Positions 1 through 12,121 of a DNA stretch of 20,652 nucleotides are shown in pieces. The notes beneath the pieces are model-generated. The model had not been told where the DNA came from and did no database searches. It saw nothing but the letters and a program-made list of their open reading frames with translations. Position numbers and translations under genes: made by a program. The stretch comes from a virus, in the IMG/VR virus record IMGVR_UViG_3300040801_001105, positions 1-20,652 of that record; one strand, written 5' to 3'. Numbering within the stretch: position 1 is the first letter of the stretch; every line of letters starts with the position of its first letter.

Positions 1-966
1 AATTAGATTACCAATCAATCCTCTTGGTGAATTAAAGGCATTAGAAAATGATTCTTTTAATGAAAGAATACCATTGTTGAATTTTTCTGAAATACTTTTT
101 AAACCATCTGTCATTCCTTTGATATAGGTTTTAGGATTAAGAATTCTTCCAAGCCTTTTAAAAAGTCCATCATTTGATCTTTGAAGAAATACATATAGAT
201 CATTCATTCTATGCCATATTTCCCTAAGATAGATTGTTATAAATCCATCTCTTCCTTTATCACCTAGAGATTTTTCTACTCCCGAATCAATTTGTTTTAC
301 TTTTTCTAATATCTCAGAAGTCACATTCATTTGGTGTTTTTCTTTATTACCAAATAATAAATGAAATGTTCCCTTTGCAACTGTTTTTATTCCTTTAAAT
401 ATTGCCTGAGAAACAAATTTCAGACCATCCAATAATTTAGATGTTAGATTCTTCAACATATCTTTTAAAGAAGAAAATCCATTTTTGACCATTTCACCCA
501 TTTTTTTAAATGGCGACAAAATTTTATCAACAGTATTCTTTAATGATTTTTGTATAGATTCTTTTAATGAGATTATAGGAGAAACAATCTTCTCTATTAA
601 TAATGAAGAATCATTAAATAGAGAAGATTTTTTTGTCTTTGTTGGGTTTCCTTCTTCTGCATTCGATGTTCTTTGAAAAAACGATCTATTTTGGAATAAA
701 GATGATTCAATGTTTCGTATACTTTTTAATAAAGAAGTTAATAAAATATTAGTAGTATTATTATCAGTTTCTTCTTTTGTTGCCTCTGTATCATTATTTC
801 TTGTTTTTATTTTAATTCTGTTATTATCACTTCTTTTTATTTTATTTTTCATATTAAAAGACTCAGGATTTATAGAATTTCCCTGATCATTATTAGGATC
901 ATTTTCAGAATTATAATTTTTTACTGAATGGATTGTTTCTGAAATGTTTTTTTGATTTTGAGGCAT
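1..966 (-). CDS. Putative tape-measure protein (gp29-like position), 3' end beyond window
   Basis: Open for 322 codons from ATG at 966-964 down to base 1 with no stop, so the C-terminal part lies outside the window. The first ~100 residues are rich in Asn, Lys, Ser and Thr and look disordered. From about residue 120 on there are amphipathic helical stretches (around SPFKKMGEMVKNGF and FVSQAIFKGIKTVAKG) with Lys/Leu periodicity. I see no enzyme motif. The call rests on context: the gene lies directly downstream of a tail-tube gene and a gp26-type frameshift pair, where long-tailed phages keep the tape-measure gene. Tape-measure proteins are helical, poorly conserved, and fix tail length inside the tube. 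No clear ribosome-binding site precedes the ATG. It could instead be another helical virion protein; the length beyond the edge would help decide. It contains a strong inverted repeat at 586-629. Confidence 0.55.
   Translation of the reverse strand, partial: MPQNQKNISETIHSVKNYNSENDPNNDQGNSINPESFNMKNKIKRSDNNRIKIKTRNNDTEATKEETDNNTTNILLTSLLKSIRNIESSLFQNRSFFQRTSNAEEGNPTKTKKSSLFNDSSLLIEKIVSPIISLKESIQKSLKNTVDKILSPFKKMGEMVKNGFSSLKDMLKNLTSKLLDGLKFVSQAIFKGIKTVAKGTFHLLFGNKEKHQMNVTSEILEKVKQIDSGVEKSLGDKGRDGFITIYLREIWHRMNDLYVFLQRSNDGLFKRLGRILNPKTYIKGMTDGLKSISEKFNNGILSLKESFSNAFNSPRGLIGNLI
586..629 (-). repeat. Long inverted repeat (19 bp paired) inside the tape-measure candidate
   Basis: Arms 586-598 and 617-629 are perfect 13-base complements. 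Inside them, 601-606 and 611-616 form a further 6-bp stem closed by a 4-base loop at 607-610, with only a 2-base bulge at 599-600. The mRNA of the minus-strand gene would fold into an almost continuous hairpin in codons ~113-127. It is inside a coding region and is not an obvious terminator. Function unknown. Confidence 0.8.
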
Positions 967-995: not shown

Positions 996-1190
996 TTATA
1001 ATTGATTTTCTAATTGATTTTTTATTTGATTTTCTTTTTCAATATGATTATTTAATAGATGTATATATATTTCCCTTTCCCACGGAAGCATTTCTTCTAA
1101 TTCTGTTAACGAACATAATTTATATTCTTGTATTAATACGAAATTTGTATTGTAATAAGAATATAATGATTCATTAGATAGGGCTAGAAA
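996..1190 (-). CDS. gp51-like reading frame without start codon, reached by -1 frameshift from the gp26-like gene
   Basis: This frame is open from 1220 down to the TAA at 996-998, in the -1 frame relative to the gp26-like gene. From the CTA at 1187-1185 it encodes 63 residues, including the tract LEEMLPWEREIYIHLL and an acidic/Lys/Gln helical tail. There is no ATG, GTG or TTG before an internal Met about halfway along, so separate translation of the whole frame is unlikely. It overlaps the end of the upstream gene exactly at a run of nine T on the coding strand. The simplest reading is a fusion product of about 310 residues made by -1 slippage, equivalent to the T part of lambda G-GT and perhaps to T4 gp51. 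The gene ends 29 bases before the tape-measure candidate. A homopolymer sequencing error that splits one gene is the main alternative. Confidence 0.65.
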   Translation of the reverse strand, partial: FLALSNESLYSYYNTNFVLIQEYKLCSLTELEEMLPWEREIYIHLLNNHIEKENQIKNQLENQL

Positions 1191-1927
1191 AAAAAATCTT
1201 TCAATCCTTTTACTTCGACATCATTAATGGTTTCACAAGATTTACATTTGAACTTAACATCATTGGACAAATACGGATAGTCTTCAAAAAATTTTTCAAT
1301 TTTTTGCATTTGTGGTATTGATAAAGAATCAATAAACTCATCTAATTCTTCTGGATCAATGTCCTCTCTAGGATATACTGTTTCCTTATCATAAATCGAT
1401 ACAACAGAATTTTTGATAGTAGTATATACCTGAGATGTTTCTGGTTCTTTATTATCATTATCATCATTTTCTTGAATAATAATGTCATTCAATGAAGGAT
1501 ATCTAAGTACAATTCCAACATCATCTGTCAATTGAATTTTTTGTTTTTCTGGATCATAATTCTTTAATTGTACATCATTGATGATAACATCAACATCGTT
1601 TTCTGCTTCACATTTTTCACAATCTAAACGAACTGTGGTTTTTTCACCGATTGATCTAGATGATATTTGTAAGAAAACAGATTCGGCATCAAAGGAAGGA
1701 AGATTTTTTACATCCATCTTTTTTGTTTTGTCATTATCTACAGAAATAACACAAGACTCAATGATTTCCATAAATGATGCATAGATGTGTTGAATATCAT
1801 CGCTTTCTAATGAAATCAATAGATTTTTTTGTTCCTTAACCAAAAATGGTTTAAATTGGAACTTCTGTTTTGTAGATGGAATTTTTCCAAGATATATAGG
1901 ATGTTTCAGTGATGGTAATTGTTTCAT
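1184..1927 (-). CDS. gp26: gp26-type baseplate hub / tail assembly chaperone (G-like)
   Basis: The 247-residue product begins MKQLPSLKHPIYLGKIPS and then PFLVKEQKNLLISLES, the N-terminal pattern I associate with the T4 gp26 baseplate family (Pfam T4_baseplate). T4 gp26 is about 208 aa. Two CxxC pairs are visible (C103/C106 and C228/C231), suggesting a zinc ribbon. In T4, gp26 is needed for hub assembly. I chose the ATG at 1927-1925, not the GTG 12 bases upstream, because AGGTG sits nine bases before this ATG and overlaps the GTG; this is one of the few clear Shine-Dalgarno sequences here. The gene lies between the tail-tube gene (40-base gap) and the tape-measure candidate. Its last codons run through a T9 slippery site, so I infer a G/GT-type chaperone pair acting on the tape measure in the cytoplasm. 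Confidence 0.75.
   Translation of the reverse strand: MKQLPSLKHPIYLGKIPSTKQKFQFKPFLVKEQKNLLISLESDDIQHIYASFMEIIESCVISVDNDKTKKMDVKNLPSFDAESVFLQISSRSIGEKTTVRLDCEKCEAENDVDVIINDVQLKNYDPEKQKIQLTDDVGIVLRYPSLNDIIIQENDDNDNKEPETSQVYTTIKNSVVSIYDKETVYPREDIDPEELDEFIDSLSIPQMQKIEKFFEDYPYLSNDVKFKCKSCETINDVEVKGLKDFFF
1187..1198 (-). promoter_or_regulatory. Candidate programmed -1 frameshift site (T9 slippery run)
   Basis: On the coding strand the zero frame reads GAT TTT TTT TTC TAG, so nine T (plus-strand A run 1188-1196) lie immediately before the stop at 1184-1186. Slipping back one base on T TTT TTT or T TTT TTC leaves full tRNA-Phe pairing, avoids the stop and enters the 63-codon downstream frame. I do not see a convincing stimulatory stem just downstream. 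Homopolymer T runs are known slippery sequences (HIV-1 uses U UUU UUA). Confidence 0.6.
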
Positions 1928-1967: not shown

Positions 1968-2507
1968 TTATGGATTAATAATTTGTCTTCTATCATAGAC
2001 AACAGTAACATTTAACTTTTGTATCTCATTCGCGGATGCATTTCCAAAGTCAATAGGATCAGTCTGAATAGGGAAAACATTGAACAGTTTAATACCTTTT
2101 ATCTTTTCATTGTTTTTATCTAACTGCCATACTTCCCATGATCCGGCTATAATATCTTTCTTATATGATAATTCATATGTAAAAGAATTGACTATTTTCT
2201 CCATCCAAAATGAAAACAATTCTAATATTTTATAGTCTCCATTTAAATGAAATGTGAATGATATTTCTTCTGTCGTAAAGGAATTCGGTGTTCGAATAGG
2301 ATGTGCAGTCGTTGATAATTCTCCTGTGACAATTCGATGTCCAGGCCAATTTGCAACGTCACAGAATATATTCATTTGTTCCATTGATGCAATATATGGT
2401 ACACTAGGAGGAACAGATAGCAGCACTTGATATCTGTTTTTAAATGATGGTCCACCAGCACCATCAAGAAATCCTGAGAAACTTGGAACCGAATAATTGA
2501 CTGCCAT
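1968..2507 (-). CDS. gp19: Tail-tube protein, T4 gp19 family (major tube or tube-initiator paralogue)
   Basis: The 179-residue product is close to the length of T4 gp19 (163 aa). It shows the tube-protein pattern: a start with KNRYQVLLSVPP, a central segment NIFCDVANWPGHRIVTGELS followed by TTEEISFTFHLNGDYKILELFSFW, and a C-terminal strand QKLNVTVVYDRRQI. Such proteins stack as hexameric rings to form the inner tube of the contractile tail. The gene sits next to the gp26-like and tape-measure candidate genes, and no sheath gene is nearby in this window. It could therefore be the major tube protein or a gp54-like tube initiator; the length favours the tube protein. Its own late promoter box lies 40 bases upstream, separated from the start by four hexamer repeats. 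There is no Shine-Dalgarno. Confidence 0.75.
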   Translation of the reverse strand: MAVNYSVPSFSGFLDGAGGPSFKNRYQVLLSVPPSVPYIASMEQMNIFCDVANWPGHRIVTGELSTTAHPIRTPNSFTTEEISFTFHLNGDYKILELFSFWMEKIVNSFTYELSYKKDIIAGSWEVWQLDKNNEKIKGIKLFNVFPIQTDPIDFGNASANEIQKLNVTVVYDRRQIINP

Positions 2508-3206: not shown

Positions 3207-3914
3207 TTATTTATTATCGTATCTTTGAACTTTAGTAATTAGACGAACATCGAATACTGCTAATTGAGTTGGTTCATTCGAATGTATGATATGATTTCCA
3301 TCATCGTATGCTGCGTGTATACCGAGGTTTCTTAGAGTTTTATTCCAGATTGCACCGGCTTTATCATTATCATATAGAGAGAAATGTGTTTTTTCTATAT
3401 AATTTTCAATAAGGGACCAAAGATTAAATCCAGGATTTGATTTAAAGTATAGCATATATTTTTCAAAATCATCTAAGACATTAGATGAGTATCTTTTAAT
3501 TTCTTGATAGACGGTATCATCTTTCATTTTACTTGAATACATTTTTTCAATTTTTTCTAGATATTTTTTATATTCGGATGATTTAACTTTGGAAAGGTTG
3601 ATGACACCTGAGTCTGATTTTAATTCAAAGATATTAATATATTTTCTATCACCTGCATATGGAATTTCATCGGTTTTTAATACAAATTTAGAAGGATATG
3701 CATATACTCCTAATGGTCCTGTATGAGAAGCAATTGGTCGAATACCTAATTTTGGAACATCCGTGAACGAAACAAAAGAATTTTTTATTCCTAGAGAACT
3801 CATTTTATTGGCAATATGATAATGATTTTCTATAATATCTATAATGGATACTTTAGGATTTTTATCAGGATTTCTTCTTGCTTCTTTTAAGAACGTTTTA
3901 TACTGTTTTTTCAT
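3207..3914 (-). CDS. Uncharacterised phage protein with possible ADP-ribosyltransferase-like layout (235 aa)
   Basis: Function not recognised. After a basic N-terminus (MKKQYKTFLKEARRNPDK) comes SFVSFTDVPKLGIRP, then GPLGVYAYPSKFVLK, AGDRKYINIFEL, and a C-terminal block IWNKTLRNLGIHAAYDDGNH followed by IIHSNEPTQLAVFDVRLITKV. The order (an early GxYxYP strand, then a late strand ending in a VFD-type segment after a GIHAAYDD-like turn) loosely resembles phage ART-PolyVal-type domains, but I cannot place the catalytic triad. The ATG lies inside the end of the upstream gp4-like gene (17-base overlap) after a purine-rich AAGAAGAAG tract, so translation is probably coupled. It could be a virion protein delivered with the DNA or a packaging accessory. 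Confidence 0.6.
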   Translation of the reverse strand: MKKQYKTFLKEARRNPDKNPKVSIIDIIENHYHIANKMSSLGIKNSFVSFTDVPKLGIRPIASHTGPLGVYAYPSKFVLKTDEIPYAGDRKYINIFELKSDSGVINLSKVKSSEYKKYLEKIEKMYSSKMKDDTVYQEIKRYSSNVLDDFEKYMLYFKSNPGFNLWSLIENYIEKTHFSLYDNDKAGAIWNKTLRNLGIHAAYDDGNHIIHSNEPTQLAVFDVRLITKVQRYDNK

Positions 3915-6319: not shown

Positions 6320-9274
6320 ATGACTACAAAAGTTGGATTACCATTAATAAATGTTGAGGGAACAGAACAAGCAGATGCTATTGAATCCCATGTGAAAATT
6401 GAAAAAATATTTCTTTATTCTACAGCAGATCAATCCACTGGTATTACATATGGATCAATGAATTTAAATGATCCCAATGCATATGATGTGACACAAGTTG
6501 CTGTTGAATTAGAAATAACCGAATCAATACATTCCTTGGCAGTTGTAGGTTCATTAACAATTGTTGATAATTTTAACTTTTTTACTAATGCCAGAATACA
6601 TGGTCAAGAAAAAATATGGATTAAATTTAGAAGATTCAATCCACAGGCTCAAAATTATGATGCATCTATTGAACGCGAATTTTTAGTAACAAATATTAGG
6701 GGTATTTCAAGAGGTGAATTTAGAGGTACATTCACATTAGAATTTGCATCTCCACATGTATATTTTGATAAATTGAAAAGAATTGGTCGTTCATATGGTT
6801 TTGTTGAACTATCCGAAAAAGATTTATCAGAACCAAAAGATCAATATAAAAATGATGTTTCTGGTGGAAAAGATGCCATTAAAGGATGGAGAGAAAAATA
6901 TACAGAAGATTCTGGAAAAATAATCGAATATGCAAAAATTAGTGATGTTATTCAAGAACCTGAATCTGATTTTGGTTTTATAAATCAACGAGTAAATTCA
7001 TTTAAATATCCAGAAGAATTTATTTATGATATTCTTAGAAATGATTTAGGTCTTCCAAAAGAAAAAGTCTGGCTGTATGCAGGCAAGAGCGGTACAGGTG
7101 CTAATAGAAATTGGATTGATAGAATGAAAGTTATCATTCCTAATTGGAGACCATTACAGGCAATCAAATGGTTAATTCGAAATACCTATTATCGTAAAAA
7201 AGATAATAAAGGAGTCAAAGGTCATCCTTGGTTTTGCTATGATACATTATTAGCAGGCATTAGAATAGAACCATATGAAATGTTAATAGGATATTATAAT
7301 CCAGAAAATGATGATTCCTGGCATCTCGAAATGCAAGGTATGGGTAACGAGATTAATGACGCAGAATTAGCCTCAACTGGAAGAGTGTCTAAAGTAATGA
7401 CAGGAATATATCGTTATAATCCACAATATATTGCTGATCCTCATTCGGTAACATATTTTGCAGATGTCCATAGAAAAATACTAGAAATAGAATTTGGATT
7501 TTCTTGTGATAAATATACAAATACTTCTAATGGTGCCTATTCTACAAGAGAATGGTTTGTAGATATTGCAACAAAATATACGATGCCAAATCTTCATGTT
7601 TCTATAGATGGAACAAGAATACAATATAATGATGAAACCATTACTCAAGGAATGGATACATTATCTGTAAATCATTACTTATCATATGCAGACGATGTTG
7701 ATTCACAGGCTCCTGATTTAGATCAATCAAATTATACTTATTATGTTCCATACAATTCTGCATTACATGGAACTACCGAAGAAACATATCCATATAATAG
7801 AGCATTTGGTTTTAATTATGGTGTTCCTTCATCTGGTGGTATTGGTCCGGGTTCTATACATAAACCAAGTGATATAAATCCTGAATTATCCGAAGAAGTA
7901 ATCAATACAGGATTACCAAATGGTTCACCAATGGCGGATGGTTCATATCGATTAACAAGTAAATATGGTTATAGAACACATCCTATTGATAAAACCAGAA
8001 AAATGCATAAAGGAATTGATATGGCTGCGCCAACAGGAACACCAGTATATTCACCATATGAAGGAAAGGTTGTATTTGCAGGACAAGCAAGTGGATATGG
8101 CAATTATGTTAAAATACAACATGCGGATGGAACAGAAACAAGATATGGTCATTTAAATTCCATAGATGTTTCTGTTGGACAACCAGTTAAACCAGGACAA
8201 AAAATTGGTGGAGTAGGAAGTACCGGAAAAAGTACCGGACCACATCTTCATTATGAAATTAGAAAACACGACAATCCTGTTGATCCATTACCATATATTC
8301 AAGGGAAAAAAATGTCTACAACTACCTCAGAGGTTGGTGGTCAAGGTGGTCCTGGTGATACGTGTCCTATATCTGGATTAGTTCAATCATCTTCTAATTA
8401 TGGTCAGACACAAAATTCTGTCGGCGTTTCTCAAGCAGAATGGAATACATATCGAAAAACTATTGCTCAAATAGAAAGTTCTGGTAAAGGATATACGGCT
8501 GTTGGAGGTGCAAATAATCATTACGAAGGAGCATATCAAATGGGAAGAGCAGCAAAAACAGATGCAGCAAAAAGATTAGGGATTCCTTATCCATCGAGAT
8601 CAGAGTTTTTAGCGAATCCTGATCTACAAGAAAAAATGTTTGATTCATATACAGCACAGAACCATGCCTATTTATCTAGTAATTCTAAATATCAAGCATT
8701 GACACCACAACAGAAAATGGCTGTTCTTGGTTATGCTCATAATCAAGGTGCTGGTGCAGCATCTAAATGGCTAAATGGTGCAGCCCCAGGAACAGATGCC
8801 TTTGGAACATCCGGAACAAAATATTCTAAATGTGTTGCAAATAATTTAAATGCCGAAGACCTTCCTGTCGATGATTCTATTAATAATAATGATGATGATG
8901 GATATACAACAGGTGGAGAAGGATATAGTTCTGGAGGAAAATATATTCAAGATTATAATCCTCAAGAATTAGGAAGAATAGGAAGAATGGGTGATATGAT
9001 CAGAAAGAATATGAATTTTATGCAACACAAGATTAAGGTTCTTGGTGATTTTAAATTAAATCCAGGAATGGTAGTTCAACTTGAAATACAAAAAACTGCT
9101 CCTACTGAATTCTTGCAGAATCAAATGACAGGTTCAAGAAATGATCCAAATGTTATTGATGAATATCTTTCTGGTATTTATTTTGTTACGGAATGTACAC
9201 ATATATTTAAAGAACAAAAATTCTTTACATATGCAACAATTAATCGTGATTCTTCAACTCAAGATTTAGATTAA
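6320..9274 (+). CDS. gp27: gp27-type baseplate hub with inserted M23 peptidase and transglycosylase-like domains
   Basis: The product is 984 aa, against about 390 for T4 gp27. Residues 1-~500 form the hub body (AVELEITESIHSLAVVGSLT; EFRGTFTLEFASPHVYFDKL; later WRPLQAIKWL). Residues ~540-655 are an M23 (LytM-type) zinc endopeptidase with H563/D567 in HKGID, H611 in YGHL and H642/H644 in HLHYE, so the active site looks complete. Residues ~700-840 look like a lysozyme/lytic transglycosylase domain, with E719 in IAQIESSGK and GAYQMG further on. The hub fold resumes at ~885-984 (LNPGMVVQLEIQKTAP; LSGIYFVTECTHIFKEQKFF). The enzymes are thus inserted inside the hub, joined by Gly/Ser linkers. The likely role is to cut peptide and glycan bonds of the cell wall during injection. 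The gene ends in four in-frame TAA codons. Confidence 0.88.
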   Translation: MTTKVGLPLINVEGTEQADAIESHVKIEKIFLYSTADQSTGITYGSMNLNDPNAYDVTQVAVELEITESIHSLAVVGSLTIVDNFNFFTNARIHGQEKIWIKFRRFNPQAQNYDASIEREFLVTNIRGISRGEFRGTFTLEFASPHVYFDKLKRIGRSYGFVELSEKDLSEPKDQYKNDVSGGKDAIKGWREKYTEDSGKIIEYAKISDVIQEPESDFGFINQRVNSFKYPEEFIYDILRNDLGLPKEKVWLYAGKSGTGANRNWIDRMKVIIPNWRPLQAIKWLIRNTYYRKKDNKGVKGHPWFCYDTLLAGIRIEPYEMLIGYYNPENDDSWHLEMQGMGNEINDAELASTGRVSKVMTGIYRYNPQYIADPHSVTYFADVHRKILEIEFGFSCDKYTNTSNGAYSTREWFVDIATKYTMPNLHVSIDGTRIQYNDETITQGMDTLSVNHYLSYADDVDSQAPDLDQSNYTYYVPYNSALHGTTEETYPYNRAFGFNYGVPSSGGIGPGSIHKPSDINPELSEEVINTGLPNGSPMADGSYRLTSKYGYRTHPIDKTRKMHKGIDMAAPTGTPVYSPYEGKVVFAGQASGYGNYVKIQHADGTETRYGHLNSIDVSVGQPVKPGQKIGGVGSTGKSTGPHLHYEIRKHDNPVDPLPYIQGKKMSTTTSEVGGQGGPGDTCPISGLVQSSSNYGQTQNSVGVSQAEWNTYRKTIAQIESSGKGYTAVGGANNHYEGAYQMGRAAKTDAAKRLGIPYPSRSEFLANPDLQEKMFDSYTAQNHAYLSSNSKYQALTPQQKMAVLGYAHNQGAGAASKWLNGAAPGTDAFGTSGTKYSKCVANNLNAEDLPVDDSINNNDDDGYTTGGEGYSSGGKYIQDYNPQELGRIGRMGDMIRKNMNFMQHKIKVLGDFKLNPGMVVQLEIQKTAPTEFLQNQMTGSRNDPNVIDEYLSGIYFVTECTHIFKEQKFFTYATINRDSSTQDLD

Positions 9275-9284: not shown

Positions 9285-10058
9285 ATGGATAGAGAATTTG
9301 ATTTTTTTCATCAAATAGGACAATTCCAGGTTCCTTGGACGGGTGTTGTTGAAGATCGTAATGATCCAGCCTTTATGGGACGAATTAGAGTAAGAATTTT
9401 TGGAGTACATTCTACTGATAGAACAGAAGTTCCAACAGAAACATTACCTTGGGCAACACCATTGTTTCCATCGACTTCTGCATCCTTTGGAGGTATTGGT
9501 GCTACTGCTTCAGGATTAATTGAAGGAACATGGGTGATGGGATTTTTTCGTGATGGATTTTCCTGTCAAGACCCAATTATTTTTGGTCCGATATTATCGA
9601 GTTCTTCTCCAAAATGGACGGGTACACAAAATATGTTAAAACAAAGTAACATATATAATAAAACAGCAGGAAGTATAGAAAATAATATTGTACCGTCAAC
9701 CAATGATTTGACTGACATACAAAATGAATCTTTTGGAAAGAAATTAATGGGATTTGGGACAAAAATACAAGAAAAAACATCTGAAATAACAAAAGAAATA
9801 TTAAAGAGTATTGGTATTACTAATATGGATGGTTTCAAAGATCATGCATTAGAAACCGAAGAATTTGAAGAACAAATAAATAGTGTTTCGGAAAGCATTG
9901 CAGAACAATTGATTCTAGAATTAGAACCAGAAATAAAAACACATTTTAAAATCGATGAAATTGATAGTGACACTAAAAACAATTTAAAAACAGAATTAGA
10001 AGATGACACTAAAAACAATTTAAAAGAATTAATTATCGAATATCAAAGAAATAAATGA
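9285..10058 (+). CDS. gp5: gp5-type OB-fold spike adaptor (N-terminal half of a split gp5)
   Basis: Residues 1-~112 match the gp5 N-terminal OB domain: WTGVVEDRNDPAFMGRIRVR, IFGVHSTDRTEVPTETLPWA, and then ATASGLIEGTWVMGFFRDG and QDPIIFGPI. In T4 this domain ties the spike to gp27. Classical gp5 continues into lysozyme and then a beta-helix; here the remainder (~113-257) is Lys/Glu/Asn-rich and probably helical, with no lysozyme. The acidic C-terminus contains DTKNNLK twice, encoded by a 22-bp direct repeat (9968-9989 and 10004-10025). The stop overlaps the next start (ATGA), so this half and the beta-helix half are probably made in step. The leader is the TAA block with no Shine-Dalgarno. Confidence 0.88.
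   Translation: MDREFDFFHQIGQFQVPWTGVVEDRNDPAFMGRIRVRIFGVHSTDRTEVPTETLPWATPLFPSTSASFGGIGATASGLIEGTWVMGFFRDGFSCQDPIIFGPILSSSSPKWTGTQNMLKQSNIYNKTAGSIENNIVPSTNDLTDIQNESFGKKLMGFGTKIQEKTSEITKEILKSIGITNMDGFKDHALETEEFEEQINSVSESIAEQLILELEPEIKTHFKIDEIDSDTKNNLKTELEDDTKNNLKELIIEYQRNK
9968..10025 (+). repeat. 22-bp direct repeat in the OB protein gene
   Basis: The same 22 bases occur at 9968-9989 and 10004-10025, with starts 36 bases (12 codons) apart and in frame; both encode DTKNNLK. This looks like a recent small in-frame duplication in the helical C-terminal tail. Confidence 0.85.
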
Positions 10059-12121
10059 ACAACGCTGATTACGAATTTGAAGGTTTCTTAAATACAATTA
10101 GTCGTAATGCCTTAGATAAAGGTGTTCAAAAAATTCAACAAGAAATCAATAATGAATTAAGTCCATTATATAAAACGATTACGGATGTTAATAATTTAAT
10201 TGATGAAAAAAGTGCATTGGTTGAATTTGCTACTGATAATCTAGGAAATATTATCGAAGATTCCACTGATATTATTAGTTCATTTTTATCTACTGATTTT
10301 ACTGGAATTGTTGAAGGTATTCTTTCTATAGGAAATCTCGGAGGATTTTCTAAATTTATTTTTGGTGTAATCGAAAGACCATATCTTATATTAAATGAAG
10401 TCTTTAATATATTTTGGGACCCCTTAGCATCCTTTATGACGGATTCTTTAATTGCAGATGATTTCTTTTTTAAAAGTATAGAAGAAATTATTCAAGAACC
10501 GTTAATTTCTACCTTTACTGATTTAAGAAAAGGATTATTACCAGGAACATTATATGAAAGACCATTAACAAAACATCCACTATATCCTTCAGAACCGGAT
10601 GTACACAGAGTATCAAGAAATGATAGAACTGTGTATGAACCAGGAGGAATGAAATATAATTATGATAGTGCAAGAGACCCATTATTATTAGAACCAAAAA
10701 TGTCATATAATGCGACATATCCATATAATCATTTTATGACAACAGAATCCGGACATATTTTTGAATATGATGATACACCTTCATATGAAAGAATACAAGA
10801 AAGACATTGTTCCGGAACAGGTTATCATATTAATGCAGATGGAAGTCGAAAACATTTCGTTATGGGAGACGAATTTAGTGTTATTATTCGGGATAATCGA
10901 GTACATATATTTGGAAAATTAGAATTATATGTAGATAAAGAAGCACAGATTTCTATTAATGGTGATGCAAGAATTAATATTGCCAGAAACGCCGAAATAC
11001 ATGTTCGTCGGGATGCTAATATACATACACTAAGAGATTTCAATGTTTTTGCAGGAAGAAATATTACATTAAATGCACAGGAAAACATTAAATTCAATGC
11101 AAAGAAAAATATTGAAACTTTTTCTCAAGAAGAAACTAAATTGCATTCGAAAAAATTAATGCAATTATATACAGATGAAACGTTTGAATTAAATTCTACT
11201 AAAAAAACTAAACTACAATCACTTACGCATGTAGAAATAACTGCACCATTAATTGATATAAATTATGCGTCTGGAGATTCTTTTTCTGTGAAAGGAAACA
11301 TTCCATCTCCTATTGGAAAAAAACCACATGAAATGACAATTCCATATAAAACAGAGGAATTTACAATTCGTCATGAAGGTTTTCCAGGATCGTCTGCAAC
11401 GATTTCTCAGGGTTCTATTAAAGCAGCGATGAGAAAAGGAGAATTAGGCGTAGAAGAATGGGTAAATAGACAGCCTGATATTGTATTAAAAAAACCAGAA
11501 AGTAATGAAAATTCTAGTTCTGGTGGTGGTTCCATTATTGAGGGAGTTGGTATTGATAATGAAGACGATTTAAAAGACCCTGCTAATCCGATATATGATT
11601 TTAAAATATCCAAACATTGTTATGTCAGAGATTTAACATTATCTGCATATTTTCCTCATTATTTACAAGAACAATGTGGATTATCAATCAACGAAATTGT
11701 TAAGAATCTTTCTAAATTAGCCAGATCGGCGGTTGATCCATTATATGAACATTTGGGTGGTTTTGCAGTAAATACCTATGGAAGACCAAAAGGTAAATTA
11801 CAATTAACATCCGGATTTAGAAAAGCAACAAGTTGTCGTAGTCAACATGAAAAAGGAAATGCATTTGATTTTCAAGTAATCGGTCTTGGAAAAGGATATT
11901 ATTATGATATGGCAAAATGGTGTGAAGGTGGTCTTGGCTATTCGGCAATTCTATTAGAATATAAAACAACAGGTACTAGACTTCCTTGGATTCATGTTCA
12001 AACAGCAGGTGGTGGTGGAACCTATACCTATTTAAATCATAAATTATATGAAAATCGATTCGTCAATCTATTACACAAACAAGCACTTCCACCAGATATT
12101 CATCATAAAGTAGAAGTATAA
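10055..12121 (+). CDS. Central spike protein: gp5-type beta-helix with C-terminal M15-like peptidase
   Basis: The 688-residue product starts with a helical region (1-~160) containing hydrophobic stretches (FSKFIFGVIERPYLILNEVF). Residues ~205-275 match the gp5/VgrG neck (YNHFMTTESGHIFEYDDTPS; GTGYHINADGSRKHFVMGDE). Residues ~275-405 are short alternating strand repeats (AQISINGDARINIARNAEIH; NITLNAQENIKFNAKKNIE) typical of the gp5 needle. After a Ser/Gly linker (~485-500), residues ~515-665 look like an M15 (DD-carboxypeptidase-type) zinc domain: TSGFR, SQHEKGNAFDF (H598, D605) and PWIHVQ (H647), with E635 a candidate catalytic acid. This would put a peptide-cutting enzyme at the tip end of the spike. 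The start overlaps the OB gene stop (ATGA). The frame ends at TAA within a TATAAATA box. Confidence 0.85.
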   Translation: MNNADYEFEGFLNTISRNALDKGVQKIQQEINNELSPLYKTITDVNNLIDEKSALVEFATDNLGNIIEDSTDIISSFLSTDFTGIVEGILSIGNLGGFSKFIFGVIERPYLILNEVFNIFWDPLASFMTDSLIADDFFFKSIEEIIQEPLISTFTDLRKGLLPGTLYERPLTKHPLYPSEPDVHRVSRNDRTVYEPGGMKYNYDSARDPLLLEPKMSYNATYPYNHFMTTESGHIFEYDDTPSYERIQERHCSGTGYHINADGSRKHFVMGDEFSVIIRDNRVHIFGKLELYVDKEAQISINGDARINIARNAEIHVRRDANIHTLRDFNVFAGRNITLNAQENIKFNAKKNIETFSQEETKLHSKKLMQLYTDETFELNSTKKTKLQSLTHVEITAPLIDINYASGDSFSVKGNIPSPIGKKPHEMTIPYKTEEFTIRHEGFPGSSATISQGSIKAAMRKGELGVEEWVNRQPDIVLKKPESNENSSSGGGSIIEGVGIDNEDDLKDPANPIYDFKISKHCYVRDLTLSAYFPHYLQEQCGLSINEIVKNLSKLARSAVDPLYEHLGGFAVNTYGRPKGKLQLTSGFRKATSCRSQHEKGNAFDFQVIGLGKGYYYDMAKWCEGGLGYSAILLEYKTTGTRLPWIHVQTAGGGGTYTYLNHKLYENRFVNLLHKQALPPDIHHKVEV

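Follow-up and report, generated by a model that had tools for sequence, protein, structure and literature searches.

A tail assembly chaperone locus in which gp26-like and gp51-like frames are very probably joined by programmed -1 ribosomal frameshifting

In the stretch of viral DNA analysed here (IMG/VR virus record IMGVR_UViG_3300040801_001105, positions 1 to 20,652; hereafter the window) a gene resembling T4 gp26 ends on a run of nine T, and a second frame, resembling the C-terminal part of T4 gp51, continues beyond its stop with no start codon near its beginning. The locus thus raises the question of how this second frame is expressed. An earlier sequence-only reading had proposed that ribosomes slip back by one base on the T run and thereby produce a fusion protein, as in the tail assembly chaperone pairs of lambda and its relatives. 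Our analysis leads us to conclude that the locus very probably encodes a tail assembly chaperone whose long form is made by programmed -1 ribosomal frameshifting. The features on which the argument turns are these:

1..966, minus strand: tape-measure-like gene, the downstream neighbour, incomplete where the contig stops (match to phrog_1272, tail length tape measure, at E 3.6e-6)
996..1190, minus strand: extension in the -1 frame, which gives the long form its gp51-like C part (F plus 63 residues; phrog_634, T4 gp51 199-250)
1120..1166, minus strand: AU-rich hairpin some 23 nt past the heptamer, with a 10-bp stem and an inner one of 5 bp, a possible but weak stimulator
1184..1927, minus strand: gp26-like short form, the tail assembly chaperone N part (PF12322, phrog_150)
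1188..1196, minus strand: T9 run, which includes the slippery heptamer T_TTT_TTT (heptamer 1196-1190, zero frame GAT TTT TTT TTC; direct reading)
1205..1209, minus strand: AAGGA, resembling a Shine-Dalgarno sequence, with the first heptamer T following after 8 nt (family profile peak 7-9 nt)
1968..2507, minus strand: tail tube gene, the upstream neighbour (phrog_45, tail tube, E 5.9e-24)

The gp26-like ORF reads down from two possible starts, GTG 1939 or ATG 1927, of which the latter is likely to be used, with AGGTG, the motif that contains GTG 1939, as its ribosome site. The short form matches PF12322 (T4_baseplate, the gp26/gp51 family) with 175 bits against a Pfam gathering cutoff of 24.5 (E 1.8e-51, residues 19-250), and phrog_150 with E 8.9e-54. 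Its 3' end reads ...AAA GGA TTG AAA GAT TTT TTT TTC TAG, with the TAG at 1186-1184; the nine-T run (1196-1188) is the longest homopolymer of the window, and both the slippery run directly before the stop and the -1 relation of the frames can be read in the sequence, as had been claimed. The open stretch of the -1 frame extends from a point 34 nt ahead of the gp26 stop as far as a TAA at 998-996 and encodes 63 residues after the shared FFF. The earlier description of this frame as beginning exactly at the overlap holds for its homology to other gp51 proteins, which starts at the slip site, but not for the open frame itself, which has its first 34 nt in common with the end of the gp26 frame. No ATG, GTG or TTG occurs in it until an ATG 95 nt past the gp26 stop, well within the gp51-homologous region, in agreement with the claim that the 63 codons lack an early start. 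Its gp51-like character was borne out by a match to phrog_634 (baseplate hub assembly catalyst, E 5.3e-18); a tblastn search with the extension gave matches in 534 phage records (E<=1), and the two results together indicate that the frame is coding. The short form gave tblastn matches in 669 phage records. Since the chance of a 63-codon open frame at 30% GC is about 0.5%, as estimated from base composition, the case is carried by homology and conservation and not by frame length. Counted from GTG 1939 the fused product would have 314 aa, and counted from ATG 1927 it would have 310 aa, the latter being the length originally predicted. The order tail tube, gp26/51 pair, tape measure corresponds to that of the G/GT pairs, so that this comparison too is upheld, and a similar order is seen in IC12 and phiM12; the match of the gene at 1..966 to Tape_meas_lam_C is under the cutoff. 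There is no second copy of the gp51-like gene within the 20.6 kb, a fragment of an incomplete genome, and an Rfam search of the window returned no match.

The comparison with relatives covered 134 loci, namely 39 IMG/VR loci from a search with the short form, 80 IMG/VR loci read among at least 597 found with the extension, 14 isolate or single-virus records and the window; clustering at 80% identity reduced them to 81 clusters. A diverse alignment of 21 proteins (A1) offered no stretch conserved enough as a search query, and an alignment of the C part (A2) was used instead. The extension lies in the -1 frame in all 134 loci, cultured phages included, and nine tblastn records listing both the short form and the extension, checked by hand, all showed the same -1 relation. 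The frame break is neither chance nor a lone sequencing error. An in-frame xxT TTT TTN stands at the end of the short frame in 133 of the 134 loci and 80 of the 81 clusters, the sole exception among these loci being the Ackermannviridae phage Kuja with C_CTT_TTT. Examination of the codons showed that: 1) the position preceding the phenylalanines is occupied by D, S, N or A, in every case through a codon with T as its third base; 2) where it is serine, both AGT and TCT are used; 3) the second phenylalanine is sometimes replaced by leucine, as TTA; and 4) the heptamer is also kept in GC-rich relatives (ACP17 0.60, DLP6 0.55, BUCT608 0.54). From codon usage given the amino acids, the probability of the heptamer being kept in all clusters is about 10^-33, an upper-end figure, the lineages not being fully independent. 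As this is far beyond the expectation from codon usage, the nucleotides themselves are conserved and not just the protein. The T run at the slip site of relatives, whose counting had been proposed as a check, has six or seven T as against nine in the window. In three relatives (L043, L113, L128) the zero frame extends several codons past the heptamer before its stop, so that the heptamer, and not the stop, is the fixed point. The Straboviridae VH7D and avDM6 retain the frameshift form. Vibrio phage D528 has no heptamer and carries TAATG near its gp26-like stop; to judge from these sequences, the slip site may have been changed or lost in the lineages of Kuja and D528.

The nucleotides flanking the slip site carry further signals. 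Pairing to the anti-Shine-Dalgarno sequence upstream of the heptamer averages -6.6 kcal/mol across the family against -4.8 for synonymous re-draws (z -11), whereas ten control positions gave |z| <= 2. In the family profile the pairing is strongest where 7-9 nt separate the element from the heptamer, which is the spacing of an internal Shine-Dalgarno sequence promoting -1 slippage and not that of an initiation site; by cluster, the element is about equally strong where a start codon is lacking (-6.4) and where one lies nearby (-6.6). The 48 nt past the heptamer have a folding energy of -8.4, compared with -3.9 in synonymous re-draws (z -19, all clusters); taken singly, 38 of 80 clusters show z < -2, compared with 4-8 of about 80 at control positions, and the typical hairpin begins 5 nt after the heptamer, as in P-SSM2 and L095. 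Across the family, the sequences identify a -1 ribosomal frameshift cassette. The window stands at its weak end for both elements: its AAGGA pairs with -5.4 kcal/mol, not above the synonymous null of -5.0, and its hairpin reaches z -2.9 against dinucleotide shuffles but is not above the synonymous null (z -0.36). The longer T run of the window may compensate for these weak stimulators.

We then compared the two frames with the T4 proteins. The short-form profile matches both T4 gp26 (2e-15) and gp51 (2e-6), while the extension profile matches gp51 (1e-6) and not gp26. Profile-profile alignment places the short form on T4 gp51 13-200 (E 2e-13) and the extension on gp51 199-250 (E 3e-8), and PF12322 spans residues 1-206 of gp26 and 1-201 of gp51. 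By these alignments and spans, T4 gp51 is the long form encoded in one frame and gp26 the short form alone; what in T4 is a separate one-frame gene is, in the window, divided between two frames of one locus. Hence, the suggestion that T4 gp26 and gp51 are the same kind of pair proved right as to homology, but not as to arrangement, for in T4 they are two separate genes, gp51 having both domains in one frame and gp26 the first domain alone. An adjacent, co-oriented arrangement of T4 genes 26 and 51, as might be expected from the gene numbers, was rejected, the two genes being divergent. In the T-evens, gene 26 is followed by gene 25 and not by a C part; it ends in GAG TTC TTT GAG in T4 and similarly in the others, and none of the gene 26 ends read in T4 and other T-evens contains the heptamer, which is consistent with slippage no longer being needed there. 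In a tree, T-even gp26 and gp51 each form one group, and the two are jointly split from all frameshift loci (97/90); with its long branches, this tree is moderate evidence, consistent with a single duplication in the T-evens behind the two proteins. A review of T4 (PMC3004832) lists both as hub assembly chaperones, and gp51 is reported there to be absent from the particle though needed for assembly. T4 gp26 (L041 11803-12429) also weakly matches the family of gp28, the hub distal subunit (phrog_1140, E 9e-4), a match by which gp28 may be remotely related to the chaperones.

Could the gp51-like part instead be a separate protein, begun at or just past the gp26 stop by termination-reinitiation? 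Public records draw gp51 as a separate CDS, an ATG lies within +30 of the stop in 24 of the 81 clusters, and some loci (VH7D, Cr30, BUCT608, phiM12) show TAATG or TGATG. Yet 33 of the 81 clusters, the window and 32 others, have no ATG, GTG or TTG in the -1 frame from the upstream stop to +30, and where ATGs do lie nearby, homology begins ahead of them, at the slip site. These ATGs also lack a Shine-Dalgarno sequence (-0.85 kcal/mol), the SD-like element standing instead 7-9 nt before the heptamer, and the two domains share one chain in T4 gp51. A separate start codon in relatives, which had been named at the outset as the finding that would tell against slippage, is therefore no general explanation, and we regard reinitiation as highly improbable here; in another lineage D528, which has TAATG and lacks the heptamer, may genuinely use it, going by its sequence.

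The T run itself invites two other explanations. Long A/T runs make RNA polymerase slip, and on the nine T, the longest homopolymer of the window, transcriptional slippage might yield mixed mRNAs of which some read through in frame. The six or seven T of relatives, however, are too short for efficient polymerase slippage, and the conserved SD-like element and hairpins act on ribosomes; polymerase slippage as the explanation is very unlikely, although in the window phage it could add to ribosomal slippage. It might also be supposed that the true run has ten T and that a single continuous gene was broken by an assembly or homopolymer error, the T9 having been read from a metagenome contig for which a pattern scan found no near-identical contig. 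But the frame break is common to all 134 related loci, including isolate genomes with six-T runs, and because it recurs in this way the error fails as an account of the family; for the window we find it scarcely credible.

Programmed -1 ribosomal frameshifting thus remains our preferred reading, and the course of events would be as follows. Most ribosomes would end at the TAG at 1186 and release the gp26-like short form, while a minority, paused on T_TTT_TTT, would slip back one base into the -1 frame and read through it to give a long form of about 310 residues, the C part of which would be helical and gp51-like. If lambda G/GT is a guide, the two forms would together coat the tape measure, encoded just downstream, during tube assembly. 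Slippage in the window phage, its rate and the chaperone role are what we infer.

Structure prediction, for which the sequence rows came from IMG/VR loci only, gave an AF2 model of the short form with pLDDT 93 and one of T-even gp51 with pLDDT 86, the latter showing the same order of elements followed by three C-terminal helices for the extension. A Foldseek search of the short-form model against the PDB returned nothing significant, the HK97 chaperone 2ob9 having the highest probability (0.60) but an E of 1.4 over 67 columns; the predicted likeness to this fold is suggestive only. The T-even gp51 model likewise gave nothing significant, 2ob9 not being among its best 50 matches, and sequence profile searches against the PDB gave chance matches only. 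Against predicted viral proteins, the short-form model matched T4-like gp26 proteins.

The locus resembles several known systems in different respects. It shares with lambda gpG/gpGT and its relatives (HK97, P2, Mu) overlapping frames before the tape measure, a -1 slip shortly before the first frame ends and a second frame without a start; no sequence similarity to these was detectable in the searches run, and the slippery site is T_TTT_TTN in place of the G_GGA_AAG of lambda. The E. coli dnaX cassette combines an SD-like element about 10 nt upstream, a slippery heptamer and a downstream hairpin; its site is A_AAA_AAG and its frameshift product is truncated, whereas the product here is extended. 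T4 gp26/gp51 are homologous to the short form and the whole long form respectively, but are two divergent genes without the heptamer. The tail assembly chaperone locus of Vandenendeviridae/Andersonviridae, described for phage Adele (PMC12846349), likewise has a -1 frameshift and lies before the tape measure, with a conserved GTTTTT at the end of the short frame; it belongs to a different phage family from the window and is likened to it by arrangement. Closest are the TAC-N/TAC-NC tail assembly chaperones of T4-like phages described by Vladimirov, Gautam and Davidson (2022, Virology 566:9-15), as quoted in PMC10885494 and PMC12846349. The PRFect paper (PMC10885494) cites that work for T4-like phages in which the short protein and the long fusion have a gene each, and the Adele paper for poly-T slippery sequences in T4-like TAC-N genes. 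As far as these quotations convey, the T4-like systems agree with the window in having short and long forms that share the N part and a poly-T slippery sequence, some of the phages having adopted a two-gene solution, and differ from it in nothing of substance beyond the number of T, nine in the window and usually six or seven otherwise. By the same quotations, T4-like chaperone gene pairs, gp26/gp51 among them, are already in the literature and the idea is not new in kind, so that the novelty implied by the sequence-only reading falls away. The present analysis contributes a quantification of the conservation, the SD-like element and the collinearity of the match to gp51. We would only tentatively suggest, and think it on balance unlikely, that the SD-like element 7-9 nt upstream, T_TTT_TTN and, in about half of the clusters, a proximal hairpin form, in PF12322 phages, a conserved regulatory module whose description at this level of detail is new, with weakened stimulators in the window compensated by its nine-T run, possibly together with polymerase slippage.

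In the annotated phage records with the pair (L042-L057), gp51 appears as a separate and often truncated CDS, e.g. in IC12 (L046 3741-3881) and D479 (L055 3426-3518), and is missing from the annotation in ACP17 (L048) and avDM6 (L050); none of these records annotates a frameshift fusion. The present results correct this widespread annotation fault, in which gp51 is shown as a truncated gene of its own or left out and the fusion is never modelled in the records examined. Further, the direct collinear match ties gp51, the long puzzling 'hub assembly catalyst' of T4, to the tail assembly chaperones, and the loci provide a large natural set of frameshift sites, with and without a hairpin, for the study of what determines slip ratios.

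Elsewhere in the window, a 235-residue ORF (3207-3914) between the gp4-like and gp2-like genes had no family match at E < 0.05. In the hub region (6320-9274, 9285-10058, 10055-12121) one protein contains both an M23 peptidase and an endolysin-like stretch, and two overlapping ORFs divide between them the gp5-like OB part and the needle part; the second of these ORFs ends in an endolysin-like stretch (phrog_894).
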